From: Pelagibacteraceae bacterium AG-365-D07
Lineage (GTDB): Bacteria > Pseudomonadota > Alphaproteobacteria > Pelagibacterales > Pelagibacteraceae
Assembly (NCBI GenBank): GCA_003280005.1
Contig: QCGH01000005.1
Coordinates: 1-64,000, forward strand
Length of the DNA stretch: 64,000 nucleotides
Direction: 5' to 3'
The translations under genes and the position numbers were made by a program. Below the pieces are notes generated by a model. The model did no database searches and was not told the origin of the DNA. It was given only the letters and a program-made list of their open reading frames with translations. Within the stretch, counting starts at the first letter, position 1; every line of letters begins with the position of its first letter. Positions 25,103-46,200 of the stretch are shown here, in pieces.

Positions 25103-25210
25103 TTATTTTTTTTTTCTTTTGAAACTGCCCTTACCTTTTTTAGGTTTAACTTTTTTTTGCCTAAACCTAGTAGATAATAAGCTCTTTGCTATAAAATTTC
25201 TTTTTTTCAA
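25103..25210 (-). CDS. arfA: ArfA-like ribosome rescue factor, short ORF
   Basis: A 35-codon frame starting at a TTG (25208-25210) that overlaps the upstream TGA stop as TTGA, ending in TAA at 25103. The product includes FRQKKVKPKKGKGSFKRK. From memory, E. coli ArfA has FRQRVEKNKKGKGSYMRK with identical spacing, preceded by ALL where this has SLL. ArfA brings release factor RF2 to ribosomes stalled on messages lacking a stop codon. The protein ends in a lysine run encoded by ten consecutive A. An 8-bp inverted repeat (25140-25147 with 25161-25168) lies inside the frame. It is basic and very short; function is inferred from the motif. Confidence 0.62.
   Translation of the reverse strand: MKKRNFIAKSLLSTRFRQKKVKPKKGKGSFKRKKK
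25140..25168 (-). repeat. Inverted repeat inside the ArfA-like ORF
   Basis: TAGGTTTA and TAAACCTA form a perfect 8-bp stem with a 13-base loop rich in A (on the minus strand). No U-run follows on either strand, so it is a poor intrinsic terminator. In E. coli the arfA message carries a hairpin that makes it non-stop; this may be analogous, or chance. Confidence 0.5.
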
Positions 25211-25773
25211 TTTGATAATTTGTAACCTTTTTTATTATTTAATATAAAATCCTTATCTTTAAATTTTTCATTTATTTTTTTTCTCAATCTATAAATATGT
25301 GTTTCTACAGTGTGTGTTTCTACATCTGGAGAGTGTTTCCAAATATCTTTTTGCAAATCAAGAGAATTTTTTTCTATATCAGAATTCTTTAAGTATAATA
25401 TTAAATCAATTTCTTTTTCTGTAAGCTTGAGTTTAATTTCGTCTTTTATTAAAAATCTTGAATTAATATCAAGATAATATTTATTTATATTATATTTTGA
25501 TTGATTTTTAAATTTAGATTTTGAAAATGAAATATTAATATTTTCAATTAAGGTCTTAATTTTAATTGGTTTTCTTATTCTGATATTATTAAATTCACTA
25601 GTTAAATTTTCTGTTGTTAATATCAAAGTTTTGGGATTGTCGTTAACATATTTAATAAGATCTTTTTTTTCTTTAATAAGTTGTCCTATATTAAAATTAA
25701 GTTTTGCTTTTAATTCATGCAAAATATTGAACAAAGTTAAATTATTATATACTACTATATTTATATAATTCAT
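25207..25773 (-). CDS. Orphan OmpR-type winged-helix protein with degenerate receiver-like domain
   Basis: The C-terminal 80 residues form an OmpR/PhoB-type DNA-binding domain: a LTEKEIDLILYLK start, then VETHTVETHIYRLRKKI (recognition helix region) and a wing ending NNKKGYKLSN. The N-terminal 100 residues have receiver-like strand spacing (MNYINIVVYNN, KTLILTTEN) but lack the acidic pair and phospho-acceptor aspartate of true receivers. No sensor kinase adjoins. It is head to head with the YkuD gene (5 bases between starts) and coupled to the ArfA-like ORF downstream. It is probably a phosphorylation-independent regulator; targets are unknown. Confidence 0.75.
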   Translation of the reverse strand: MNYINIVVYNNLTLFNILHELKAKLNFNIGQLIKEKKDLIKYVNDNPKTLILTTENLTSEFNNIRIRKPIKIKTLIENINISFSKSKFKNQSKYNINKYYLDINSRFLIKDEIKLKLTEKEIDLILYLKNSDIEKNSLDLQKDIWKHSPDVETHTVETHIYRLRKKINEKFKDKDFILNNKKGYKLSN

Positions 25774-32225: not shown

Positions 32226-33221
32226 ATGATAATAAAGTCATTTAATTTGAATGAACTTAAAGTAAATAAATCAAATTTCTTACTATTCTATGGTGTAAAC
32301 GAAGGTCACAAAAACGAAGTTATTAACAACGTTTATTTAGATACATTTAAAGGTGAGATAATAAAATACGATGAAAGTCAAATTCTAGAGAATAAAGAAA
32401 GTTTCTTAGAGAACTGCTTTAATGAATCCTTATTCAGCGAGGAAAAAATAATTATAATAAATAGAGTTACTGCAAAAATGTTTGATATAACTAATCAATT
32501 AGTTGAAAGAGAATTAATAAATAAAAAAATAATATTTAAGGCAGGAATTTTAGATAAAAAATCGAAAATAAGAACATTATTTGAAAAAAATAAAAACTTA
32601 GTGTGTATTCCATTTTATGAGGATAACAATTCTACACTTTATAAAATTGCGTTTGAACTTTTCAAATTAAATAATATTTCAATATCTAGTGAAAATATTA
32701 ATCTTATAGTTGAAAGTTGCTCTAATGATAGAGAAAATCTTAAAAATGAAATGAATAAAATTTTAAATTTTTGTTACAAAAAAGATAAGATTAGTAGAGA
32801 AGAAATAATCAAACTAACTAACTTGCATGAAGATGAAAATTATTTTGAGTTGGTAGACAATTGTCTTGCAAAAAATCATAATAAAGTACGTAAGATTATT
32901 AATAGTAACTCTTTTACAAAGACAGAAACTATAATTATAATTAGGTCATTTCTTTCAAGAATTAAAAGATTAATTGGATTAAAAAAACAATCTCTGAAAA
33001 CTAAGAATATATCAGAGACAATTAATAATTTTAGACCTTTGATATTTTGGAAAGACAAAGATATTGTCGAGAAACAAATCAACAGCTGGACTATAAAAGA
33101 GGTTGATAAATTGCTCGAAGATTTATTAAAATTGGAAATAGATACTAAAAAAAACTACGATATATCAACAAATTTAATTTTTGACTTTATTTTAAATATA
33201 TCAACTAAAGCTAATAATTAG
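32226..33221 (+). CDS. holA: DNA polymerase III delta subunit
   Basis: Clamp-loader subunit that opens the sliding clamp. The 331 residues follow the delta layout: an N-terminal domain (LLFYGVNEGHKNEVINNVY in place of the usual LxYGxDxGL), a central AAA-like region without Walker motifs, and a helical C-terminal domain. Sequence conservation is low, so position after leuS-lptE is important support. The last 11 bases overlap the convergent parB. Confidence 0.86.
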   Translation: MIIKSFNLNELKVNKSNFLLFYGVNEGHKNEVINNVYLDTFKGEIIKYDESQILENKESFLENCFNESLFSEEKIIIINRVTAKMFDITNQLVERELINKKIIFKAGILDKKSKIRTLFEKNKNLVCIPFYEDNNSTLYKIAFELFKLNNISISSENINLIVESCSNDRENLKNEMNKILNFCYKKDKISREEIIKLTNLHEDENYFELVDNCLAKNHNKVRKIINSNSFTKTETIIIIRSFLSRIKRLIGLKKQSLKTKNISETINNFRPLIFWKDKDIVEKQINSWTIKEVDKLLEDLLKLEIDTKKNYDISTNLIFDFILNISTKANN

Positions 33222-34053
33222 CTTTTATTACCATAACTAATCTATCAAGCTGATCTGTATTACTGTACTCAAATGAAAGTGTACCTTTATTATTTTTCTT
33301 GTGATAAATCTTAGCTTGAAGTCCAGTTTTCTCTTGTAAGCTTTTCTCTAGAGCTTTGATATTGCTATCACTTGTGATTATTTTAAATTTTTTTGGAGAT
33401 TTATAAATTCTTACTAAATTTTCAGCTTGTCTAACCGATAATTTTTTATCTATAATTTTTTTTGCAATCGAATAACAATTTTCAAGACCAACTAATACTT
33501 TGGCATGTCCTTGGGATAATTTTTTGTTTTCTACAAATTTAAGTACCTCGTTTGGCAATGACAACAACCTTATACAGTTGGTTATATGTGCTCTACTTTT
33601 GCCAATAAATTTTGCAACTTTATCTTGATCATACTGGAATTCATTAATTAATCTTTTATAACCATTTGCTTCTTCAATGGGATTAAGATCATCCCTTTGA
33701 ACATTTTCCACAATTGCGAACTCCAAAGATTTTAAGTCGTCTGCTTCTACTTCAACAATTGGCACTTCATGCAAGCCTGCATTTTGTGCGGCCTGCCATC
33801 TTCTTTCACCAGCAATAATTTCGTATTTATCAGATTGTTTTCTGACTATAATCGGCTGAATAATACCCCTTTCTCTAATAGAGTTCGTTAGTTCATCCAA
33901 ATTTTCTTTATCAAAGTTTTTTCTTGGTTGATTTTTATTTCTAATAATTGAGCTAATTAAAACCTTATTTGATTTAGGAGACTCTTTATTATCTCCAATC
34001 AAAGAAGATAAACCCCTACCCAACCCCTTTTTTAATTTAATTGTATTTGTCAT
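33211..34053 (-). CDS. parB: Chromosome-partitioning protein ParB
   Basis: CTP-dependent DNA clamp that loads at parS near the replication origin. The N terminus KKGLGRGLSSLIGD is the usual ParA-contacting motif. Conserved boxes include RNKNQPRKNFD, the ParB motif AGERRWQAAQNAGL, and the helix-turn-helix VAKFIGKSRAHITNCIRLL. Length 280 is normal. It overlaps parA by 4 bases. A perfect parS site lies 1.4 kb away inside rsmG, in keeping with function here. Confidence 0.97.
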   Translation of the reverse strand: MTNTIKLKKGLGRGLSSLIGDNKESPKSNKVLISSIIRNKNQPRKNFDKENLDELTNSIRERGIIQPIIVRKQSDKYEIIAGERRWQAAQNAGLHEVPIVEVEADDLKSLEFAIVENVQRDDLNPIEEANGYKRLINEFQYDQDKVAKFIGKSRAHITNCIRLLSLPNEVLKFVENKKLSQGHAKVLVGLENCYSIAKKIIDKKLSVRQAENLVRIYKSPKKFKIITSDSNIKALEKSLQEKTGLQAKIYHKKNNKGTLSFEYSNTDQLDRLVMVIKANY

Positions 34054-34850
34054 GCTGCGCTTTCCATTATTTTTTCTTGATCAATAAATTCATTTGTAAA
34101 ACTTAAATATGATTTGCTGCCTGGGCAAGATTTGTCATAGAATAAAACAGGCATTCCATGCGAAGGTGCTTCTGACAATCTTACATTTCTTGGTACTACA
34201 GTTTGATACACTTTTTCTTTAAAATATTCCCTGGCTTCTTTTTCGACTTCAGCCGATAGTTTATTCCTTTTATCATACATAGTTAATAATATTCCTCTAA
34301 TTAACAGATCCGGGTTAAGATTATTTTTGATTCTCTCGATTGTTTTCATAAGTTGAGTAACGCCCTCTAATGCAAAAAATTCTGTTTGGAGAGGTACTAA
34401 AAGTGATTCAGAAGCAACCAGTGCCATAATTGTAAGTAGACTTAATGAGGGTGGACAATCAATCAATATATGACTGTATTGACCTCCAGAATCATTTAAA
34501 TAAGCCATTATTTGCTCATTTAGTATAAAAGCTCTTTTCGCATCACCAGCAGTCTCAACTTCTAAACCAGATAAATCTACATTTGAAGTTATTAGATCAA
34601 GATTTTCAAATTTTGTTATCTCTATAACTTCTGATAATTTTTTAGCACCGTTTAAAACACTATAAATAGATTTTTCTGAATTTTCTAAATTAGATAGTCC
34701 TAATCCTGTTGTGGCATTTCCTTGAGGGTCAAGATCAATCACTAAAACTTTTTTTCCTTGCATGCTTAGACCTGCAGCTAAATTTATTACTGTAGTTGTT
34801 TTTCCAACTCCTCCCTTTTGATTTATTATGGAAATTATTTTCTCTTTCAT
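34050..34850 (-). CDS. parA: Chromosome-partitioning ATPase ParA
   Basis: Walker-type ATPase that moves ParB-parS complexes during segregation. The deviant Walker A box is QKGGVGKTTT (residues 11-20), with DLDPQGNATTG near 39-49 and IDCPPSLSLLT near 130. Length 266 is standard for chromosomal ParA/Soj. It lies between rsmG and parB with 4-base overlaps on each side, giving rsmG-parA-parB in the classical origin-proximal order. Confidence 0.97.
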   Translation of the reverse strand: MKEKIISIINQKGGVGKTTTVINLAAGLSMQGKKVLVIDLDPQGNATTGLGLSNLENSEKSIYSVLNGAKKLSEVIEITKFENLDLITSNVDLSGLEVETAGDAKRAFILNEQIMAYLNDSGGQYSHILIDCPPSLSLLTIMALVASESLLVPLQTEFFALEGVTQLMKTIERIKNNLNPDLLIRGILLTMYDKRNKLSAEVEKEAREYFKEKVYQTVVPRNVRLSEAPSHGMPVLFYDKSCPGSKSYLSFTNEFIDQEKIMESAA

Positions 34851-35482
34851 TTTTTTTTAAGATTTTGAATTTTTATTATTGTTGAATTTATACTTGTTAT
34901 ACTTTTTTTTTCTTCGTACTCAAACTGCCATTCCTTCATGGCTTTTTTTAAAACTTCTTTTCCGTTTTTTCCTAAAAATAAAATTACCTCATGAAAAGAT
35001 TTGAAATTATTATATATAAGTTTTAAAATTATGGGTAACGGCTTGAAAGCTCTTGCCACAATGATATCTGAGAGCAAGTTTTTTTCTTCGAAAATATCTT
35101 TTTGCAATACTTGAACATTTAAATCAAATTTATTAGTAACATCTTTTAAGAATTTACTTTTATGGAAACTTTTTTCATAAAGTATAAACTTCATATCGGA
35201 CTTTTTATGTTTCATAATTATAGCTAGCACAATTCCTGGAAGACCTGGTCCAGATCCTAAATCTATGCATGTAGGCATATTAATATCAATTAAATCAATG
35301 ATTTGCGCACTATCAATTATATGTCTCTCTTTTGATATTTTTTCACTTTCTCTGCTAATTAAGTTAACTTCCTTATTTCTTTCTATAATAATTTTTCTGA
35401 ATGCCTCAAGATCTGGGAATGTTTCACGTGAAACATTTAGAGACTCCAAACAGGAATAATTTAAAATATTCGAATCAATCAA
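34847..35482 (-). CDS. rsmG: 16S rRNA (guanine527-N7)-methyltransferase
   Basis: Methylates G527 of 16S rRNA with SAM. The SAM-binding motif is [13 protein letters not shown] at residues 74-86, with NLISRESE near 40 (family NLT-type segment). Length 211 is normal. The segment NVSRETF (16-22) is encoded by a perfect parS site, a known dual use of this gene in many bacteria. It is flanked by mnmG and parA with 4-base overlaps. Confidence 0.95.
35420..35435. promoter_or_regulatory. parS centromere site inside rsmG
   Basis: TGTTTCACGTGAAACA, the canonical 16-bp parS palindrome, without mismatch. It encodes NVSRETF of RsmG in the leftward frame. ParB, encoded 1.4 kb away, should nucleate here. 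It is the only perfect copy I found in the window and is about 7 kb from the candidate origin. Confidence 0.97.
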
Positions 35483-37350
35483 GCTATATGCTTAATAGAC
35501 CTTCTTTTGACATGTGACAACAAAATATATACTGCGGCTGGTGTTATTCCATCAATTCTAAGCGCTTGACCCAAAGTTTTAGGTCGAATCTGCTCAAATT
35601 TTGACTTAACTTCGTTAGATAATCCAGATAAATCGCTATAATTTATATTATCTGGTATAATTAGGTTTTCGTCCCTTTTAAATGCTAAAATGTCTGCATT
35701 CTGCTTATTCAAATAACCTCTATAATGAGCATTTATTTCGACTTGATCGTCAATTTCCCTTGAAAATAGAGGGATTTCAGGCCATATTTCTCTAATTTTA
35801 CTCATATTTACCCCTTTCTGGCTTAAAATCTGACTTGCACTTCTAACAACGCCGTCTTTAGCAATATTTATGTTAAATTTTGATGCTTTTGAGGGGCTAA
35901 TTTTCAATTTATTTATCAACATATCCATTTTATTTAATTTTGAGGATTTATCAGTAAATATTCTTGATCTTTCATCGCTAACTAAACCAATTTTAATACC
36001 TTTATTAGTCAGTCTTAAATCAGCGTTATCAGCTCTTAAACTCAATCTATACTCAGCTCTAGAAGTAAACATTCGATATGGCTCAACAACACCTTTTGTT
36101 ACAAGATCATCTATCATTACGCCAATATAAGCTTCGGAGCGATTTAATATAAATGGCTCTGATCCCTTAACTGACAAAGCTGCATTAATTCCGGCAACCA
36201 ACCCCTGAGCAGCAGCTTCTTCATATCCTGTTGTTCCATTAATTTGTCCAGCGAGATAAAGATTTTTAATCTTCTTAGTCTCTAAAGTTAAAAAAAGTTC
36301 TCTTGGATCGATAAAATCATATTCTATGGCATATCCAGCTCTAATTATTTTTACATTCTCTAAACCATTGATTTTACAGCATATTTCTTGCTGCACATCA
36401 TAAGGCAGGGATGTCGATATACCATTAGGATATACGGTATAATCTTCTAGTCCTTCTGGCTCTAGAAAGATCTGATGTCTTTGTTTTTCTGAAAATTTGA
36501 CAATTTTATCCTCTATCGAAGGACAATACCTTGGACCTAGGCTTTTTATATTGCCAGAATACATGGCGCTTTTATTCAAATTTTTTGAAATTATTTTATG
36601 AACAGCTTCGTTCGTATAAGTCATCCTACATGAAACTTGTCTATTGCGATTTTTGGAAGTTAGGAATGAAAAGAAGTATGGCTCTTCGTCTGCAAACTGC
36701 TCTTCAAGATTTTCAAAATTGATAGTTCTAGAATCTAGCCTTGGTGGAGTACCTGTCTTGAGTCTACCCATTTTAAAATCAAAGTTTTTTAGTTGTTCAC
36801 TTAAACCTGTGGTGGGCTTTTCATTGTATCTACCAGCGGGCGTCTGATCATCACCAATGTGTATAACACCATTTAAAAAAGTACCTGTAGTAAGTATTAG
36901 CTTAGATGTTTTAATTTTTCTCCCATCCTTAGTTACTAATCCACTTATAACGTTTTTTGAAAATATAAACTCTATTACAGGATCAGAAAAAATCGTTAAA
37001 TTACAGTAGTTTACAAGTTTTTCTTGCATATATTTTTTATATAAAGATCTATCACTTTGCGTTCTAGGACCTCTTACAGCTGGTCCTCTACTTCGATTAA
37101 GTAGTCTAAATTGAATACCTGATTTATCTGCAACATCACCCATAACCCCATCTAAAGCATCTATCTCTCTAACTAGATGACCCTTTCCAAGTCCTCCTAT
37201 TGCAGGGTTGCAGGACATTTCTCCTATTGTTTCAAACTTATGAGTAAATAATGCAGTATTTATTCCTAACCTTGCGGAAGCTGCAGCGGCTTCACAACCG
37301 GCATGACCTCCACCTATAACTACGACATCAAATGATAATTCTTTTTTCAT
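35479..37350 (-). CDS. mnmG: tRNA uridine-5-carboxymethylaminomethyl modification protein MnmG (GidA)
   Basis: FAD-binding partner of MnmE in wobble-uridine modification. The FAD-binding motif is [13 protein letters not shown] at about residues 10-22. The signature [16 protein letters not shown] lies near 43-58, and [12 protein letters not shown] near 195. A glycine-rich [18 protein letters not shown] segment lies near 365. Length 623 is normal. It follows mnmE after 47 bases and overlaps rsmG, the usual origin-region arrangement. Confidence 0.98.
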
Positions 37351-37397
37351 ATATTTAATTTATTACCGATTTTGTATTTTACAAGCTGTGAGATTTC

Positions 37398-38729
37398 TTA
37401 TTTACCAATACAAAAATTCTCAAAGATGGACCCAAGTATTTCTTCTACATCAACTTTTCCTACAATTGCACCAAGATGTCGTATTGCTAATCTTAAATCT
37501 TCAGCCGCTAAATCAAATTCATTATTATCTTTCTTTTTTAAAAAAACTTCTAAATGTTTATAACATTCCTCTAAATGGGATCTGTGTCTTGATCTGGTTA
37601 TTAAAACATTATCTGATCTTAAAAATTGTTTTTTGAGTTTTGATTTTACAACTTCTATTAATTTATCTAAGTTGTTGTCTTCTTTAATAGAAATAGTAAG
37701 GGGTGTGGTTTTAAAATTTATACTTTTTAAATATTCTGTTCCTAAATCTGATTTGTTGATAACCAAAATAGATTTGTCTTCCATTTTTTCGTTAAAAAAC
37801 CCTTTAAAATCAAGGCTTTTGGGGTCTAGAAGAGTTATAATTAAATCTGCGTCTTCGGCTCTCTTTATCGCTAATTTTATACCCTTTGCTTCGATCTCGT
37901 CGCCCGAATCCCTTATACCGGCTGTATCAAAAATTATTACGGGTATTCCTTCTAAATCTAAGTGCACCTCTAATACATCACGAGTTGTCCCTGCCTTTTC
38001 TGAAACTATTGCAACTTCACGTTTTGAAAGATAATTGAGTAAACTGGACTTACCCACATTTGGTGGTCCTATTATTGCTATCCTAAAACCTTCTCTAATT
38101 ATTTCGCCAGTTTTATTATCGTCTAAGGTCCTTTTTATTTCATTTTTAATTGTAAAACATTTAGTCTTAATATTTACATGACCATTCTCTGGCAAATTCT
38201 CCTCTGGAAAATCTATTTTTGCTTCTATATCAGCTAAAGCTTTAATCAATTCTTCTCTCCACAAATTGAATTTTTTGGAACTATCTCCAGACATAATTCT
38301 TAAAGCTTGTTTTCTTTGAAGTTCAGTTTCTGCTGCAATCAAGTCTCCAATGCTTTCTGCTTTTAATAGATTTATTTTGTTATTTTGAAATGCGAGTTTT
38401 GTAAACTCACCTGGTTCAGCCAATCTACAATCCTCGAATTTTTCAAGTACATTTAATATTTCTTGCACTACAGCCTTGCTTCCATGTACATGGAATTCAG
38501 CCATGTCTTCCCCTGTATAACTATTTGGGCTTTTGAAGAATATTACAAGACCTTCGTCTATCAAATCACCACTTTTTGGATTAAAAATTTTTTTAAGTGT
38601 GGCAACCTTAACTTTGGGTGGACTGTCATTGATTAAACACGAAATTACTTTTTCTGTTTTAATCCCAGAAACTCTTATTACAGCTATACCCGAAATACCA
38701 GGTCCAGATGATAGTGCATAAATAGTCAT
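37398..38729 (-). CDS. mnmE: tRNA modification GTPase MnmE (TrmE)
   Basis: K+-activated GTPase acting with MnmG on wobble uridine 34. The N-terminal tetrahydrofolate-binding domain starts TIYALSSGPGISGIAVIRVSG. The inserted G domain has GPPNVGKSSLLN near 216-227, EKAGTTRDVLE, DTAGIRDS and NKSD. The C terminus ends in FCIGK, the conserved C-I-G-K catalytic cysteine motif. Length 443 is normal. It lies between rho and mnmG on the same strand. Confidence 0.98.
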   Translation of the reverse strand: MTIYALSSGPGISGIAVIRVSGIKTEKVISCLINDSPPKVKVATLKKIFNPKSGDLIDEGLVIFFKSPNSYTGEDMAEFHVHGSKAVVQEILNVLEKFEDCRLAEPGEFTKLAFQNNKINLLKAESIGDLIAAETELQRKQALRIMSGDSSKKFNLWREELIKALADIEAKIDFPEENLPENGHVNIKTKCFTIKNEIKRTLDDNKTGEIIREGFRIAIIGPPNVGKSSLLNYLSKREVAIVSEKAGTTRDVLEVHLDLEGIPVIIFDTAGIRDSGDEIEAKGIKLAIKRAEDADLIITLLDPKSLDFKGFFNEKMEDKSILVINKSDLGTEYLKSINFKTTPLTISIKEDNNLDKLIEVVKSKLKKQFLRSDNVLITRSRHRSHLEECYKHLEVFLKKKDNNEFDLAAEDLRLAIRHLGAIVGKVDVEEILGSIFENFCIGK

Positions 38730-38770
38730 AAATTTACTTTGACTATATCAGGAAAATTTAAAAATATACT

Positions 38771-40042
38771 CTAAGATGGTTTATTCATTGAATTGAAGAA
38801 ATCCGCGTTATTCTTGGTATTTTTCAATTTAGAATTAATAAATTCAATCGCATCCATAGAACCCATAGGAGCGATTATTCTTCTTAAAACATTCATCTTT
38901 TGTAAGTCGTTCTTATCAAATATTAATTCTTCTCTCCTCGTTCCAGACTTAGTAATATCAATTGCTGGAAATATCCTTTTTTCTGATATTTTTCTGTCCA
39001 AAATTGTTTCACTATTACCAGTTCCCTTAAATTCTTCAAAAATAACCTCATCCATTCTACTTCCTGTATCAATCAGCGCAGTTGCGATGATTGTCAGCGA
39101 TCCACCTTCTTCAATATTTCTAGCTGCTCCAAAAAATCTTTTCGGTCTTTGCAGTGCATTAGCATCCACCCCGCCAGTTAATACTTTACCAGAACTGGGA
39201 ACAACTGCATTATAAGCTCTGCCGAGTCTTGTTATTGAGTCTAATAAAATTACCACATCTTTTTTATGCTCTGTTAGTCTTTTTGCTTTCTCAATAACCA
39301 TTTCTGCTACTGCTACGTGCCTTTGTGCTGGTTCATCAAAAGTAGAGCTTATCACTTCTCCTTTAACAGTCCTTTGCATGTCTGTTACCTCTTCTGGCCT
39401 TTCATCTATTAGCAATACCATAAGGTAACACTCTGGATGGTTGGCTGTAATCGAATTAGCAATACTTTGTAAGATCATTGTTTTTCCAGCTTTGGGAGGG
39501 GAAATAATTAATGATCTTTGTCCTTTACCAATTGGACTAACAAGGTCGATTAATCTCGGGGTTAGATCTGGAGTTTTTTCTACTTTTGTTTTTTCTGACT
39601 CCATCACTAGCTGACTGTTTGGATATAAGGGTGTTAAATTATCAAATGCAATTTTGTGTCTAACTTTTTCGGGTTCCTCAAAATTAATTTTGCTAACTTG
39701 TAATAATGCAAAATACCTTTCTCCATCTTTAGGTGCTCTTACCTGGCCCTCGACTGAATCTCCAGTTCTTAAACCAAAACGTCTTATTTGACTTGGGCTA
39801 ACATATATATCGTCGGGTCCAGGAAGATAATTTGATTCCATTGCTCTCAGAAAACCAAAACCGTCTTGTAATAACTGCAAAACTCCACCGCCAGTAATTT
39901 CTTCTCCTTTTTCGGCATGCTTCTTTAATATTGCAAAGATAATTTCTTGTCTTCTTAACGTGCTAGCATTTTCTATGCCAAGTTTTTCAGCATCATTTAT
40001 CAACTGTTCAGAGGTTTTTCCTTTAAGTTCTTGAATGTTCAT
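38771..40042 (-). CDS. rho: Transcription termination factor Rho
   Basis: Hexameric RNA-dependent helicase ending transcription. The N-terminal domain (about 1-125) has a Rho helix bundle then a cold-shock-like RNA-binding fold ([35 protein letters not shown]). The ATPase core has [11 protein letters not shown] near residue 180, [14 protein letters not shown] and [11 protein letters not shown]. Length 423 is normal. With few intrinsic terminators visible here, Rho-dependent ends are probably common (inference). It sits between hemJ and mnmE. Confidence 0.98.
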
Positions 40043-40096
40043 GGGGATTAATATTTGGATGCTATGAATATAAACACATATTTATAAATTACAAGC

Positions 40097-40531
40097 CTAT
40101 AAAGGTTTAATAATAACAACAAATACAATCAATATAAGCAATACGGTAGGGACTTCGTTTATATAACGATAGAATTTAGATGTTTTAGTATTTGTTCTGT
40201 TTTTGAGGCTTAATAGACATTTCCCTAAGTATTCATGATAGCCAGTTAAAACAATTACGAGAGCAAGCTTAATTTGCATCCACAAATTAACCAAAACATC
40301 AAAACCGTTTAAATAAATTAATAGAATACCAAATATCCATGAAAAAAGCATTGCTGGTCTCATAATGTAATTATAAAGTTTTCTCTCCATGATTTCAAAA
40401 ATAAATGTGGTTTCTTTTTTTTCATAGTTTTCAACGTGGTATACGAAAATTCTGGGCAAATACAAAAGTCCAGCCATCCATGAAATTACAGCAATTAAAT
40501 GAAGGGCTTTTATAATTAGATATAGATTCAT
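40097..40531 (-). CDS. hemJ: Protoporphyrinogen oxidase HemJ
   Basis: Small membrane protein of 144 residues with four hydrophobic helices, of the HemJ/UPF0093 family that oxidises protoporphyrinogen IX. Family features include the N-terminal ALHLIAVISWMAGLLYLPRIFVYH (with the conserved histidine and WMAGL...R), and LWMQIKLALVIVLTGYH. It is co-encoded with hemH and hemE (1-base overlap with hemH), giving the last heme steps in one operon: HemE, HemJ, HemH. Confidence 0.93.
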   Translation of the reverse strand: MNLYLIIKALHLIAVISWMAGLLYLPRIFVYHVENYEKKETTFIFEIMERKLYNYIMRPAMLFSWIFGILLIYLNGFDVLVNLWMQIKLALVIVLTGYHEYLGKCLLSLKNRTNTKTSKFYRYINEVPTVLLILIVFVVIIKPL

Positions 40532-41526
40532 CAGCTTAGATTTTTCTTCACAAGATATTCTAGTAGATCAATATGATCCTGATTATCGTTAAGACATGGA
40601 ACAAACCCAAATTTTTCTCCACCAGACTTTTCGAAACTATCCCTGCCTTGAATTGAAATCTCTTCAAGAGTTTCAACACAATCAGATGCAAAACCTGGCG
40701 AAATAACTAAAACTTTTTTTATTCCTTCCTTGGGCAATCGCTCTAATGTCTTATCTGTATAAGGCTGAAGCCATTCTTCAGGACCAAATCTTGACTGAAA
40801 AGTCGTTATCAGTTTTACTCTTTCAAACCTTTCTGAAATAAGTCTTGTAGTTTTTTGACAGTAGCAATGATAAGGGTCACCCTTTTGAAAATATTTCTTT
40901 GGGATCCCATGATAAGATGCAACTATTAAATCTGGCGCCCAGTCTAGTTCATCTATTTTCTGGTTTATACTTTTAACAATAGCATTAATATATAATGGTT
41001 CAGACTCATAGTGTGGCACAACTTGAATTGCTGGCTGCCACCTCATTTTCATTAATACTCTAAACACTTCGTCACAAACTGTAGCGGTAGTTGGTGAAGC
41101 ATATTGGGGATATAATGGCAAAATAATTAATTTTTCACAGCCTTTTTCTTGCATAAACTTAATTTTACTATCGATGCTTGGATTTCCATATCTCATGGCA
41201 AAGTCTATTATCAAATTTTCATTATTGATTTTATCTCTGAGTTTTTGGGCTTGCATCTCTGTATAAAATCTTAATGGTGATTTATTAACATCTTTCATCC
41301 ATATTTCTTTGTAGGCCTTTGCGGTTTTAGATGGTCTGAAAGTTAATATGAATAAGTTTAAAATAATTTTCCAAATAAAAGGATTTACTTCAATAACTCT
41401 TCTATCTGATAAAAATTCTTTTAAATATTTTCTTATATCCCACCAACTCGTAGAGTCTGGAGTGCCCAAATTAATCAATATAACACCAGTTTTACCATAA
41501 TTAATCTTTGGATGACCCTCGTTCAT
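40531..41526 (-). CDS. hemH: Ferrochelatase
   Basis: Inserts ferrous iron into protoporphyrin IX. The 331-residue protein has GVILINLGTPDST at the start, LPLYPQYASPTTATV near 140, the catalytic-histidine segment VASYHGIPKKYF near 200, and the signature FQSRFGPEEWLQPYTD near 243-258. A VISPGFASDCVETLEE segment contains the conserved acidic residues. Placed between hemE and hemJ with short overlaps, so probably co-translated. Confidence 0.97.
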   Translation of the reverse strand: MNEGHPKINYGKTGVILINLGTPDSTSWWDIRKYLKEFLSDRRVIEVNPFIWKIILNLFILTFRPSKTAKAYKEIWMKDVNKSPLRFYTEMQAQKLRDKINNENLIIDFAMRYGNPSIDSKIKFMQEKGCEKLIILPLYPQYASPTTATVCDEVFRVLMKMRWQPAIQVVPHYESEPLYINAIVKSINQKIDELDWAPDLIVASYHGIPKKYFQKGDPYHCYCQKTTRLISERFERVKLITTFQSRFGPEEWLQPYTDKTLERLPKEGIKKVLVISPGFASDCVETLEEISIQGRDSFEKSGGEKFGFVPCLNDNQDHIDLLEYLVKKNLS

Positions 41527-42521
41527 TTGAATTCCTTAACAAAATCAACCAATATCTTTACACTATCGGGATTTGTTTCTGGAATCATGCCGTGTCCCAG
41601 ATTAAAAATATACTTGTGGTTTTTAAAAATTTCTAAATATTTTTTAGCATTTTTTAACATATCATTTTTCTCTAATAATAAACATTTCGGATCCATTCCC
41701 CCTTGTATGGGTATATCAATTGTTTCAGCAATTTTGATTGGGTCCACCTCATAATCTATACTAATTACATTGGGTTTTACTATATCACAAAAATCTTTAT
41801 AAGATTTTATTAACCTTGGAAAGCAAATTACTTCAACACCTAAACTTTTTGTATAATCCACAATTTCTTTAGTTGGTTCATAAATATATTTATGTTTTTT
41901 ATTCTTGTCTAAAAGTCCAGCCCAACTATCAAAGATTTGTATTATAGTGGCTCCACTCTCTACTTGTTTCTTAATGTGTAACTTTTGTGTATCTATAATT
42001 TTCCTGATGAGTTTTTCTTGATTTGGAAAGTTATAAATATCCTCATTTAAGTTTTTCGGAGACTCTTTGTTTATCATATAAACAAATAACGTCCAAGTTG
42101 CTCCTATAAAGCCTATTAAATCTTTTTGTCTTACTTTTTCATCTTTTGACGTATCTTCAATTAGTTTATATATTGGTCCTAATTTTGTAACAATATCCTC
42201 CTCTGAAAGTTCTAAAATAATATCTAAATTTAACTCACCTAATTTAGGTCCAAAATTTTTTTCAAATTCAACTTTTTGACCTAGAGCATATGGTATCATA
42301 AGAATATCTGAAAATATAATTGCTGCATCGATTGAAAACCTTTTTAAAGGCTGTAGAGTTATTTCTTTTGACAACTGTGGATTTAAACAAAGCTTTATAA
42401 AATCTACGTTTTTAGATCTAATTTCTCTAAATTCCGGTAAATATCTGCCTGCTTGTCTCATAAACCAAACTGGCGTCTCTTTTATATCCTTTGATCTAAT
42501 ACAGTCTTTAAGAATTCCCAT
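41523..42521 (-). CDS. hemE: Uroporphyrinogen decarboxylase
   Basis: Decarboxylates uroporphyrinogen III to coproporphyrinogen III. The N-terminal signature PVWFMRQAGRYLPEFREIR (about 18-36) contains the conserved arginine motif. IIFSDILMIPYALGQ near 73 contains the catalytic aspartate region. The C terminus carries IFNLGHGMIPETNPD. Length 332 is normal. It is the first gene of the leftward heme operon, and its upstream gap is the candidate replication origin, hemE being a classic origin neighbour in Alphaproteobacteria. Confidence 0.97.
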   Translation of the reverse strand: MGILKDCIRSKDIKETPVWFMRQAGRYLPEFREIRSKNVDFIKLCLNPQLSKEITLQPLKRFSIDAAIIFSDILMIPYALGQKVEFEKNFGPKLGELNLDIILELSEEDIVTKLGPIYKLIEDTSKDEKVRQKDLIGFIGATWTLFVYMINKESPKNLNEDIYNFPNQEKLIRKIIDTQKLHIKKQVESGATIIQIFDSWAGLLDKNKKHKYIYEPTKEIVDYTKSLGVEVICFPRLIKSYKDFCDIVKPNVISIDYEVDPIKIAETIDIPIQGGMDPKCLLLEKNDMLKNAKKYLEIFKNHKYIFNLGHGMIPETNPDSVKILVDFVKEFK

Positions 42522-42793
42522 AATTAAATTATAATAGTTTTTTATTGTTTTATATTATTAACCTGTGAATTAGTTTAATCAAACTTCATACAATGTTTTC
42601 AACATTTTTATCCACTATAATAATGTCCCAAATTTATTGATTTACTTTATTTCTATTAAAAATTAACAATTTTCCTAATTATTAATACATTTTTTTCATT
42701 TGTTTAAATGTGTTAATAAATAGTTATAAAAAATAACCATTTCGAGTTTTTGGACAAATAAGACAGAATTTTATAATAATAACAAATTTATAC
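42522..42793. other. Candidate chromosomal replication origin (oriC)
   Basis: The 272-base gap between divergent hemE and ppsR is the longest non-coding stretch here and is extremely AT-rich. One-mismatch matches to the DnaA box TTATNCACA occur at 42564-42572 (minus, TAATTCACA), 42608-42616 (plus, TTATCCACT) and 42711-42719 (minus, TTATTAACA). To its left, hemE back to parB (33211) are all leftward; to its right, ppsR through dnaQ (to 46200) are all rightward. hemE is an origin neighbour in Caulobacter and Rickettsia, and parAB with parS lie within 10 kb. No perfect DnaA box was found, so this rests mainly on context. Confidence 0.68.
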
Positions 42794-43618
42794 ATGAGTA
42801 ATACACATAATATTTACTTAATATCAGATTCAACAGGTGAAACACTTGATAGAATTTTTACTGCCTTAAAGGCACAGTTTGAAAAATTCGACCATAATTT
42901 ATTTCATTTTTCGTTTACACGAACAGAGAACCAATTGCTTAAAATTTTAGAGGATGCAAAAAGGAAAGAAGAATCAATTATACTATATACAATCGTTGAT
43001 AACAAACTTGCAAAGTTTTTATCTCAAGAAGCAAGCAAAAAAAATATACCATGTTTCGGGGTTCTTGGTGACTTGATATTGAATTTCTCTAAACTGTTAG
43101 ACCAAAAAGCCACAAATATTCCAAGTGGACAACACGCATTAAATGAGGAATATTATAACAGAATTGAAGCAATTCAATTTACGATGAATCATGATGATGG
43201 AAATTCTTTAAGCGATGTAGAAAAATCTGATATTATCTTATTAGGAGTTAGTAGAACAAGCAAAACCCCAACCTCAATCTACTTGGCAAATAGAGGATTT
43301 AAAACTTCAAATATACCATTAGTAAATGAGAATTCAGTACCAGAAAAATTGAAAGAGAACCCTAAAATATCTTGCATTATTGGTTTAGTTGCTGAGCCAT
43401 ATAGATTGCATGATGTTAGAAAAAATAGACTAACAACTATTAAAGAAAATGAAAATTTAAATTATACAAAAATAGAAACTATTCAGAACGAGATAGATAA
43501 TTCAAAAAAAACATTCCAAAAATATCAGTGGCCCATAATCGATGTAACAAGAAAGTCGGTTGAGGAAACCGCCGCATCAATAATAAAAATTCATGAAATA
43601 TACTCAAACAAAAAATGA
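42794..43618 (+). CDS. ppsR: Pyruvate,phosphate dikinase/PEP synthase regulatory kinase-phosphorylase (DUF299)
   Basis: Bifunctional ADP-dependent kinase and phosphorylase that switches PEP synthase or pyruvate phosphate dikinase on and off. The 274-residue protein has the N-terminal YLISDSTGETLDRI and a P-loop-like GVSRTSKTPTSIYLANRG near 152-169, both diagnostic. The sequence cannot tell whether the target is PpsA or PpdK. It is the first rightward gene beside the candidate origin and overlaps maf by 26 bases. Confidence 0.92.
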   Translation: MSNTHNIYLISDSTGETLDRIFTALKAQFEKFDHNLFHFSFTRTENQLLKILEDAKRKEESIILYTIVDNKLAKFLSQEASKKNIPCFGVLGDLILNFSKLLDQKATNIPSGQHALNEEYYNRIEAIQFTMNHDDGNSLSDVEKSDIILLGVSRTSKTPTSIYLANRGFKTSNIPLVNENSVPEKLKENPKISCIIGLVAEPYRLHDVRKNRLTTIKENENLNYTKIETIQNEIDNSKKTFQKYQWPIIDVTRKSVEETAASIIKIHEIYSNKK

Positions 43619-44195
43619 AATAATTTTAGCTTCTAAAAGCAAAGTAAGAAAAGAAATATTACAAAAATATAATATACAGTGCAAAGTAATTGCATCAAAT
43701 TTAGATGAAGAACCAATTAAGGAAAGTCTTGTAAAAGAGGGTGCCTCCCCAGAAATAGTTAGCAAAAATCTCGCAGAAATCAAAGCAACAAAGGTAAGTT
43801 CGCTAAATCAAAATTACATAGTATTAGGAGCTGATAGTGTAATTGATTTTGAAAATGAAATTATTTCTAAGCCTAGAAATAGAGACGAAGCTCTTACAAC
43901 TTTAAAAAAATTGAATGGTAAGGAGCACCATCTTATTAGTTCTGTTACAATAGCCATGAATGGATCAATGATTTGGAATTATACAGATAAAGCAAAATTA
44001 ACTATGAAAAGTTTTAGTATAGAAGATTTGAAAAAATATTTATCCAAAATTTCTGATAATGCTCTATATTCATATAACGTTTATCAAATAGAAGGAGAGG
44101 GAAAAAATTTGTTTTCAAAGATAGAGGGAGATAAAAATACTGTAATGGGTTTGCCGGTCCACAAAATTAAGGAGTATTTAAAAAGTTTAGCATGA
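43593..44195 (+). CDS. maf: Maf-family nucleotide pyrophosphatase
   Basis: Hydrolyses non-canonical or pyrimidine nucleoside triphosphates to monophosphates. The 200-residue protein starts IILASKSKVRKEILQ, matching the family LASxSPRR motif, with the catalytic VLGADSVIDFENEIISKP near 76-93. The usual SPRR is SKVR here. The start overlaps ppsR by 26 bases. This ppsR-maf-aroE-coaE-dnaQ order is conserved next to hemE in Alphaproteobacteria. Confidence 0.93.
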   Translation: MKYTQTKNEIILASKSKVRKEILQKYNIQCKVIASNLDEEPIKESLVKEGASPEIVSKNLAEIKATKVSSLNQNYIVLGADSVIDFENEIISKPRNRDEALTTLKKLNGKEHHLISSVTIAMNGSMIWNYTDKAKLTMKSFSIEDLKKYLSKISDNALYSYNVYQIEGEGKNLFSKIEGDKNTVMGLPVHKIKEYLKSLA

Positions 44196-44989
44196 AAAAA
44201 TATGTAGTTATAGGGAATCCAATCGAACACTCTTTATCACCTAAATTGCATAATTATTGGTTTAAAAAAAAGAATTTAATTGCAAATTATGAAAAAGAAA
44301 AACTTTCAGATAATCAGCTAGAAAATTTTGTAAAAAAAATAAAAGATAAACAAATAAATGGAGCGAATGTGACTGTTCCATTCAAAGAGAAAATCATTCC
44401 TTTTGTTGACGAATTATCGGAAGAAGCAAAAGAAGCAAATTCAGTAAATACGATTTATTTATCAGGAAGTAAAATTAAAGGTCATAACACTGATATTTTG
44501 GGATTTTACTTATCACTTAAAAACTCAGACACAAAATTCAGAAATAACTCTGCCCTAATTCTTGGAGCTGGCGGTGTAACAGCTTCAATAATAATTGCCT
44601 TAAAAAGACTTGGGTTAAAAAAGATTTTTATATGTAACAGAACAAAAGAAAAAGCTATTAAATTAAAAGATAGATTTAAATTTATAGAAATTCTGGATTG
44701 GGGAGAGGCCATTAAATCTGATATAATAATTAATTCTACAAGTTTAGGATTAAACAAAAACGATACTATTGATTTCAATTTGGATAATTTCGATAAAAGC
44801 AGTATTTTTTATGATGTTATTTATAAGCCTGATGAAACAAATTTTTTAAAAAATGCAAAAAGAAAAGGATGCGAGGTCCAAAACGGCTTGATGATGTTCA
44901 TATACCAGGCAGCAGAGTCATTTAAAATATGGCATAACATTGAGCCCGCAATTGACAAAGATGTAATAAACTTTCTAAAAAATGATTAG
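44192..44989 (+). CDS. aroE: Shikimate dehydrogenase
   Basis: NADPH-dependent reduction of 3-dehydroshikimate in aromatic amino-acid synthesis. Substrate-binding motifs SLSPKLHN (14-21) and NGANVTVPFKE (about 57-67, with the catalytic lysine) are present. The nucleotide motif is LGAGGVTAS near 127, with CNRTKEKA following. A C-terminal NGLMMFIYQAAESF is also typical. Length 265 is normal. It overlaps maf by 4 bases and coaE by 8. Confidence 0.96.
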   Translation: MKKYVVIGNPIEHSLSPKLHNYWFKKKNLIANYEKEKLSDNQLENFVKKIKDKQINGANVTVPFKEKIIPFVDELSEEAKEANSVNTIYLSGSKIKGHNTDILGFYLSLKNSDTKFRNNSALILGAGGVTASIIIALKRLGLKKIFICNRTKEKAIKLKDRFKFIEILDWGEAIKSDIIINSTSLGLNKNDTIDFNLDNFDKSSIFYDVIYKPDETNFLKNAKRKGCEVQNGLMMFIYQAAESFKIWHNIEPAIDKDVINFLKND

Positions 44990-45539
44990 AATAGCATTAA
45001 TAGGAGAAATAGGATCTGGAAAAACGTTTGTCTCTAAATGTTTTAAATATCCATTGTTTAATGCTGATGATGAAGTAAATAAAATTTACAAAAATAACAA
45101 GACCTGTTTTTATAAATTAAAAAGAATATTTCCAAACAATATTAAAAATTTTCCAATACTAAAATCTGAAATTAAACAAATTTTAAATAAAAAAAATATT
45201 AAACTTTTGTCAAAGGTTATACATCCATATGTAAGGCTAAATTTGAAAAAATTTTTAATTAAAAACAGAAAAAGTAAGTATGTAATTCTTGATATTCCAT
45301 TGCTAATTGAAAACAAGTTATATAAGAAAAATGATATAATTATTTTTATTAAAACGTCAAAAAAAAAAATAATAGAAAGATTAAAAAAAAGAGGAAGTTC
45401 GGATATAAATACAATAAATATTCTTAGGTCTATGCAATTAAATAATAAAAAAAAAATTAAATTTTCAAATTATGTAATAAATAATAACTTTGGAAAAGAA
45501 AAAATTTTAAAACAAATTAAACAAATAATAAATGATTGA
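44982..45539 (+). CDS. coaE: Dephospho-CoA kinase
   Basis: Last step of coenzyme A synthesis. The P-loop is GEIGSGKTFVS (8-18), with NADDEVNKIYK near 28-38 (family DAD motif) and VILDIPLLIENKLY near 96, all in family positions. At 185 residues it is slightly short, and it is unusually lysine-rich and AT-rich even for this genome. It overlaps both neighbours by 8 bases, so the operon is tightly coupled. Confidence 0.93.
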   Translation: MIRIALIGEIGSGKTFVSKCFKYPLFNADDEVNKIYKNNKTCFYKLKRIFPNNIKNFPILKSEIKQILNKKNIKLLSKVIHPYVRLNLKKFLIKNRKSKYVILDIPLLIENKLYKKNDIIIFIKTSKKKIIERLKKRGSSDINTINILRSMQLNNKKKIKFSNYVINNNFGKEKILKQIKQIIND

Positions 45540-46200
45540 AATAATTTTAGATACAGAAACAACCGGTTTATCTGTAACACAAGGACATAGAATAGTTGAA
45601 ATAGGATGTATAGAATTAAATGACTTAATGCCTACTAAAAGAAGTTTTCACTATTACATAAATCCAGAAAGAAAAGTCTCTGATGAAGCATTTAAGGTTC
45701 ATGGTTATAGTGATGAATTTTTATCTAAACAAAAAAAATTTGATGAAATTGTTGAAGAATTTCTTGATTTTATTAAAAACAAAAGACTAGTAATTCATAA
45801 TGCAGAATTTGATTTATCCCATCTAAATAATGAATTAACTTTAATTGGTAAGAATAAAATTGATCAAGATGTTGTTGATACGCTTAAATTAGCTAGGGAA
45901 AAATTTCCAGGCTCAGATGCAAGCTTAGATGCTTTATGTAAAAAATATAATATCGATAATTCGAAAAGAGAAAAACATACTGCGATTATCGATTGTGAAC
46001 TATTATCAAAAGTATATATCAATCTTCTTGATCAAAAAGAACCAAAGCTTGAGCTCAACACAGATAGAGATTTTAAGGATGAAAAAGAAGATTTAGCTAA
46101 TTACAAATATTCAAAAAAGATTATCAAACCAACTGATCTCGAGTTAAAACTTCATAAAGATTTTTTAAAAAAAGAAATTAAAAAAAATTATTTTAATTAA
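45532..46200 (+). CDS. dnaQ: DNA polymerase III epsilon subunit (proofreading exonuclease)
   Basis: 3-prime to 5-prime exonuclease of the replicative polymerase. DEDDh motifs are visible: ILDTETTGL (4-12), HNAEFDLSHLN near 94, and HTAIIDCELLSKVY near 152. Length 222 is typical. It is the last gene of the rightward run from the candidate origin and overlaps convergent secB by 8 bases at the 3-prime end. Confidence 0.95.
   Translation: MIEIILDTETTGLSVTQGHRIVEIGCIELNDLMPTKRSFHYYINPERKVSDEAFKVHGYSDEFLSKQKKFDEIVEEFLDFIKNKRLVIHNAEFDLSHLNNELTLIGKNKIDQDVVDTLKLAREKFPGSDASLDALCKKYNIDNSKREKHTAIIDCELLSKVYINLLDQKEPKLELNTDRDFKDEKEDLANYKYSKKIIKPTDLELKLHKDFLKKEIKKNYFN

Follow-up and report, generated by a model that had tools for sequence, protein, structure and literature searches.

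Genes and features around the hemE–ppsR gap

By the window we mean the whole stretch of 64,000 nucleotides analysed here. It is contig C5 of a SAR11 genome of 1.05 Mb that is fragmented into 31 contigs, and the named records closest to it come from Pelagibacteraceae, as single-cell genomes and MAGs. Positions 42522–42793 are exactly the space between the gene hemE (uroporphyrinogen decarboxylase, 41523..42521, minus strand, PF01208 (URO-D), E=1.2e-81) and the gene ppsR (COG1806, kinase-PPPase, 42794..43618, plus strand, PF03618, E=4e-88). An earlier note on this DNA had placed a replication origin in this gap, which it described as very AT-rich and as the longest non-coding stretch. Indeed, no ORF-free stretch of the window is longer than this gap of 272 bp (the runner-up has 253 bp), and the AT content of the gap is 83.1% compared to 71.2% for the window. 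A search of the gap for tRNA and Rfam matches returned none.

As had also been noted, the flanking genes point away from the gap: all genes at 33211–42521 are on the minus strand and all genes at 42794–46200 are on the plus strand. Leftward from the gap follow hemE, hemH, hemJ, rho, mnmE, mnmG, rsmG, parA, and parB, of which the genes from rsmG to hemH form the hemE-side origin cluster (34847..41526, minus strand; rsmG, mnmG, mnmE, and rho by Pfam). The genes maf, aroE, coaE, and dnaQ form the ppsR-side origin cluster (43593..46200, plus strand; maf and dnaQ by Pfam). The gene order of both clusters is the same in the relatives. Between mnmE and rho, the loci L226 (3807–6298) and L224 (6696–9890) carry 2.5–3.2 kb of extra DNA, which is missing at 38729–38771 of the window.

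The proximity of parAB and parS, likewise claimed before, holds true. Pfam identifies parB (33211–34053, minus strand, ParB_N and HTH_ParB) and parA (34050–34850, minus strand, AAA_31), and a perfect 16-mer parS palindrome, TGTTTCACGTGAAACA, lies within the start of rsmG (35420..35435) as the sole match in the window. It is also the only parS in the genome to which the window belongs, and searches across all of G000, G012, and G082 gave one copy each. Its distance to the gap is ∼7 kb in the window and likewise ∼7 kb in two complete relatives with one parS each.

DnaA boxes in the gap

The three DnaA boxes with one mismatch that had been reported are present in the gap, at 42564–42572, 42608–42616, and 42711–42719, but taken alone they are weak evidence: dinucleotide shuffles of the gap contain 0.85 such boxes (P=0.05), and in the whole window DnaA boxes are not enriched (93 compared to 102 expected). 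We therefore rejected the box count of the window as proof of an origin, the P value being marginal, and the case that had been built on three boxes and AT-richness was weaker than it sounded, reasonable but not conclusive.

The strong evidence for an origin is comparative and does not come from the window alone. The Pelagibacter gaps contain on average 4.77 boxes with at most one mismatch, compared to 0.81 in shuffles. The best-kept box of the gap is the anchor box TAATTCACA (42564..42572, minus strand), which has one mismatch in the window and is the perfect TTATTCACA in most relatives; among the aligned Pelagibacter gaps it has on average 0.15 mismatches, and at most one mismatch in 99% of them. 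To the right of the anchor box follow three weak direct boxes with a spacing of ∼11 bp in the relatives and of 12 bp in the window. At the place of the first of these, array box A, the window has a degenerate copy, the possible weak box TTCATACA (42585..42592, plus strand), and 64% of the relatives have a box with at most one mismatch. Array box B, TTTTCAACA (42596..42604, plus strand), has two mismatches in the window and at most one mismatch at the homologous position in 54% of the relatives. Array box C, TTATCCACT (42608..42616, plus strand), is one of the boxes with a single mismatch, and 91% of the relatives have at most two mismatches there. The right half of the gap harbors the box TTATTAACA (42711..42719, minus strand, one mismatch), which is kept with at most one mismatch in 72% of the relatives. 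In addition, domain IV of the SAR11 DnaA protein has the canonical motif RDHTTV/I, and most of 30 non-SAR11 alphaproteobacteria have box clusters upstream of hemE.

DnaA-trios and the putative unwinding element

The stretch between hemE and the anchor box (42522..42563), which the earlier note had not mentioned, has an AT content of 90.5% and carries DnaA-trios in the relatives. By analogy with the published work on the basal unwinding system (BUS), we suggest that it may act as the DNA-unwinding element. In the window the trio-like repeats TAT TAT TAA (42553..42561, plus strand, read 3′-AAT TAT TAT-5′) are separated from the anchor box by the spacer CC (42562–42563). The pattern was searched for in the published style, as a DnaA box, a spacer of at most 16 nt, and at least three trios in the correct strand geometry. 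The window gap contains it (TGTGAATTA, spacer CC, TAT TAT TAA), as do 3.8% of the shuffled gaps. Among 23 Pelagibacter representatives, defined as clusters at 80% identity, it is found in 96%, compared to 5.6% of the shuffles.

The same representatives reveal a strict three-base register of four triplets, the last of which stops 4 nt short of the box. In these triplets the first position is T at a frequency of 0.93 and the middle position A at 0.86, compared to 0.05–0.09 for a middle A in the other two registers. The observed register score of 1.793 exceeds the maximum of the letter permutations (1.163). The letters of the trios vary by lineage (TATTAGTATTAT, TAGTTGTAATAT, TAGTATTATTAG, and others) and the three-base register stays constant. 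A strict pattern of box and in-register trios, which was defined post hoc after inspection of the relatives, is found in 102 of 109 gaps, which are related loci and thus not independent events; outside the gaps, 3.2 Mb of strand sequence yielded a single occurrence.

It might be argued that the gap is indeed the origin but is opened without DnaA-trios, with melting elsewhere in the gap, for example in its T-rich middle. The trios of the window are degenerate, and with its 2-nt spacer the window copy fails a strict 4-nt search. Moreover, the full published-style pattern is found in only 17% of the g3-6 gaps and 14% of the gaps of the sister family f2, and a trio-dependent opening is so far read from sequence. 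On the other hand, the T-first register persists in the g3-6 and f2 gaps (four unanchored g3-6 loci excluded), and the strict register, the fixed distance to the anchor box, and the varied trio letters of the 23 representatives are difficult to reconcile with melting elsewhere. The order TAGTAGTTG-spacer-TGTGAATA[AT] is also found at the same place in 2 of the 30 non-SAR11 alphaproteobacteria. We consider an opening without trios unlikely and favor an opening by way of DnaA-box and DnaA-trios.

Conservation of the gap and natural rearrangements

In 109 Pelagibacter loci having both hemE and ppsR the gap measures 261–286 bp, with flanking proteins that are mostly 56–62% (hemE) and 66–75% (ppsR) identical. 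Lack of conservation among close relatives, which had been named as a finding that would speak against an origin, is thus not seen.

A gap from which two genes diverge must contain their promoters, and the AT-richness could simply reflect a divergent promoter and regulatory region of hemE and ppsR, with the origin located elsewhere. AT-rich spacers also yield box-like words by chance, and boxes with two mismatches are indeed not significantly enriched in the window gap (11 compared to 7.9 expected, P=0.15). Two natural rearrangements bear on this explanation. The gene ppsR (COG1806) was found in no searched genome of the sister family f2 (L204–L217). In this family the gene opposite hemE is maf. 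The gap between the two measures 250–269 bp in all but one of 14 loci, the exception being a gap of 234 bp with one uncertain edge, and the f2 gaps are rich in boxes (2.57 per gap compared to 0.66 in shuffles). In the genus g2 (G101 and G107) it is hemE that has left: it is located 577–648 kb from ppsR (577 kb in G101), and the origin gap, with its boxes and trio-like stretch kept, now lies between rho and ppsR. The relocated hemE has no such gap upstream.

Thus, the gap persists without ppsR in f2 and without hemE in g2 and is not simply the promoter of a neighboring gene. The anchor box and the trio register are furthermore kept across lineages, and the skew described below maps to the gap. 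A region with promoter function only is therefore a very improbable explanation, and we retain the gap as the origin.

The relocated hemE genes of G101 and G107 (L218, L219, L221, and L222) are divergent (∼30–33% identity) and lie beside hemH. In another genome (G216:C1:358206–359185; L203, L220) hemE appears as two matches covering residues 12–225 and 228–331, suggesting a frameshift or an assembly error.

Position of the origin by GC skew

Within the window the minimum of the cumulative skew at 42–44 kb is only a local one, a lower minimum being found near 10 kb; this ambiguity means that the window alone is insufficient to settle the position of the origin. As the genome of the window is fragmented, we turned to complete relatives with genomes of 1.2–1.4 Mb, in which the skew was read from evenly spaced stretches. 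The raw skew of these genomes turns from negative to positive close to the gap, and it turns back far across the genome, in G082 near the antipode. Around the locus the raw cumulative skew forms a flat floor that is tens of kb wide. Because gene direction dominates the raw cumulative skew, it was replaced by a strand-corrected model of the third-position GC skew, with one term for the gene strand and another, of fixed sign, for the replichore.

With this model the skew origin lies at or near the gap in four complete relatives, and the possibility, raised beforehand, that the skew minimum lies elsewhere did not materialize. The best fit is at 905 kb in G082 (gap at 910.5 kb, thus within 5.5 kb; 2 of 288 grid positions are better than the gap), at 1270 kb in G012 (gap at 1262 kb, 8 kb away; 7 of 269 better), at 1190 kb in G105 (gap at 1155 kb, 35 kb off; 19 of 265 better), and at 140 kb in G101 (gap at 141.5 kb, 1.5 kb away; none of 243 better). 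In G101 the skew origin stays at the gap between rho and ppsR, and the relocated hemE, 577 kb away, is excluded as a marker of the origin. In f2, one contig (G102) was tested, and it showed no replichore skew that could be measured.

In many bacteria oriC adjoins dnaA, and this common arrangement raises the question whether the SAR11 origin is located at dnaA, ∼60 kb off on the hemE side, the gap between hemE and ppsR being a relic. In G012 and G082 dnaA is in fact ∼60 kb away and lies in or near the broad floor of the raw skew. Nevertheless, the skew intervals of 895–910 kb in G082 and 1245–1315 kb in G012 exclude dnaA, which is at 971 and 1199 kb, respectively, and the gap upstream of dnaA has zero, zero, and one box with at most one mismatch in G000, G012, and G082. 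An origin at dnaA is thus extremely improbable, the least probable of the alternatives.

Given the length of the gap, the conservation of its boxes and trios, and the strand-corrected skew of the relatives, we are highly confident that the whole gap (42522..42793) is the chromosomal oriC of SAR11 (Pelagibacteraceae) and that it is of the hemE/COG1806 type known from the Caulobacter Cori; it is probably opened by DnaA-box/DnaA-trio unwinding. The earlier placement of the origin at this gap is therefore upheld by the conservation in the relatives and by their skew.

Regulatory sites

CtrA sites of the form TTAA-N7-TTAA were searched for in the window gap and none was found; in the g1 relatives they occur near chance level (0.37 compared to 0.22) and in f2 they are absent. 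Each genome encodes four OmpR-type regulators. Those of G000 comprise one PhoB, two full-length proteins scoring below every curated cut-off, and one truncated protein, and none of the four approaches the CtrA cut-off. The gene ctrA has been reported as absent in Pelagibacter (PMC2877005). The protein encoded at 25207–25773 on the minus strand of the window (188 aa) has a C-terminal DNA-binding domain of the OmpR type, and a full receiver is not recognisable in it; G012 and G082 have frames of 189–190 aa with the same OmpR-type domain on the hemE side of the origin, at a distance of ∼17 kb.

The IHF consensus WATCAN5WTR was not found on the plus strand of the window gap, and in the gaps of the relatives its frequency on either strand does not exceed chance; proteins of the HU/IHF family are present. 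A CcrM-type RAMA protein and GcrA were detected in all six genomes tested, and CcrM has been reported in SAR11 before (PMC3973325). The motif GANTC occurs only once in 36 representative SAR11 gaps (15 expected), compared to 87 occurrences (44 expected) in the regions upstream of hemE in 30 other alphaproteobacteria. SAR11 intergenic DNA is generally poor in GANTC (55 compared to 167 expected), so that a depletion specific to the origin, with one site seen and ∼5 expected, is only marginal.

CtrA was not found and GANTC is nearly absent from the SAR11 origins, yet a CcrM-like protein and GcrA are encoded. On this basis it is conceivable that these origins are stripped versions of Cori which kept the core of DnaA-boxes and DnaA-trios and lost the cell-cycle gating of the origin, so that initiation would depend on DnaA only. 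We put this forward tentatively, being ourselves slightly inclined to doubt it.

Proposed initiation mechanism and significance

The arrangement of the sites might give a hint how initiation is realized. We suggest that DnaA binds the anchor box at 42564–42572 and in addition the helically phased, weaker boxes that follow on the right (∼42585–42616) as well as the box at 42711–42719. From the anchor box DnaA would polymerise leftward along the DnaA-trios in the AT-rich segment adjoining hemE; the region 42522–42563 would melt, so that the helicase could be loaded. ParB bound to the single parS site 7 kb off may then separate the new origins.

SAR11 bacteria are among the most abundant cell types of the ocean, and their growth is estimated from the read depth at origin and terminus. 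An origin that is fixed and defined by its sequence provides an anchor for such estimates. The V-shaped coverage of SAR11 in metagenomes points to one origin (PMC9589681). A search of the accessible literature for a paper mapping a SAR11 oriC found none; a database prediction (DoriC) may exist. Furthermore, the natural loss of either neighboring gene separates the origin proper from its neighborhood, and the divergent copies, in which the three-base register is kept while the letters vary, represent a natural mutagenesis set for the DnaA-trio model.

Comparison with known origins

The weak direct boxes beside a strong box, spaced by ∼11 bp and located on one helical face, resemble the low-affinity arrays of the E. 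coli oriC with their 2-bp spacing (PMC4451416). Unlike the E. coli arrays with four boxes each, SAR11 has three weak positions, which are spaced by 12 bp in the window, and we do not claim homology of the SAR11 gap to the E. coli oriC.

With the BUS of Bacillus subtilis and other bacteria (PMC8287927) the gap shares a box, a short spacer, and at least three trios in the same strand geometry. The published spacers peak at 10–13, unlike those of the SAR11 relatives, in which the trios end 4 nt from a near-perfect box. The SAR11 trios are of the form T[A/T]N and degenerate in the window, and the likeness to BUS is one of sequence.

In type, the gap resembles the origins of Caulobacter crescentus (Cori) and Rickettsia prowazekii. 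The earlier note had named hemE as an oriC neighbor in Alphaproteobacteria, and the origins of Caulobacter and Rickettsia are in fact located between hemE and COG1806 (PMC1914354). The SAR11 gap has the same flanking genes, is AT-rich compared to the window, contains DnaA boxes, above chance in the relatives, and coincides in the relatives with a skew switch; the parAB cluster near the gap in the genome of the window is a further likeness to this type. Unlike the Caulobacter Cori, the window gap is ∼270 bp long and has neither a CtrA site nor an IHF consensus site, and unlike other alphaproteobacterial origins, with about twice the expected number of GANTC, it has no GANTC. However, some origins of Ehrlichia, Wolbachia, and Anaplasma are listed with zero or few CtrA sites (PMC1914354), so that these sites are not strictly required of a Cori-type oriC. 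Its location, conservation, and anatomy support the gap between hemE and ppsR as an oriC of this known type.
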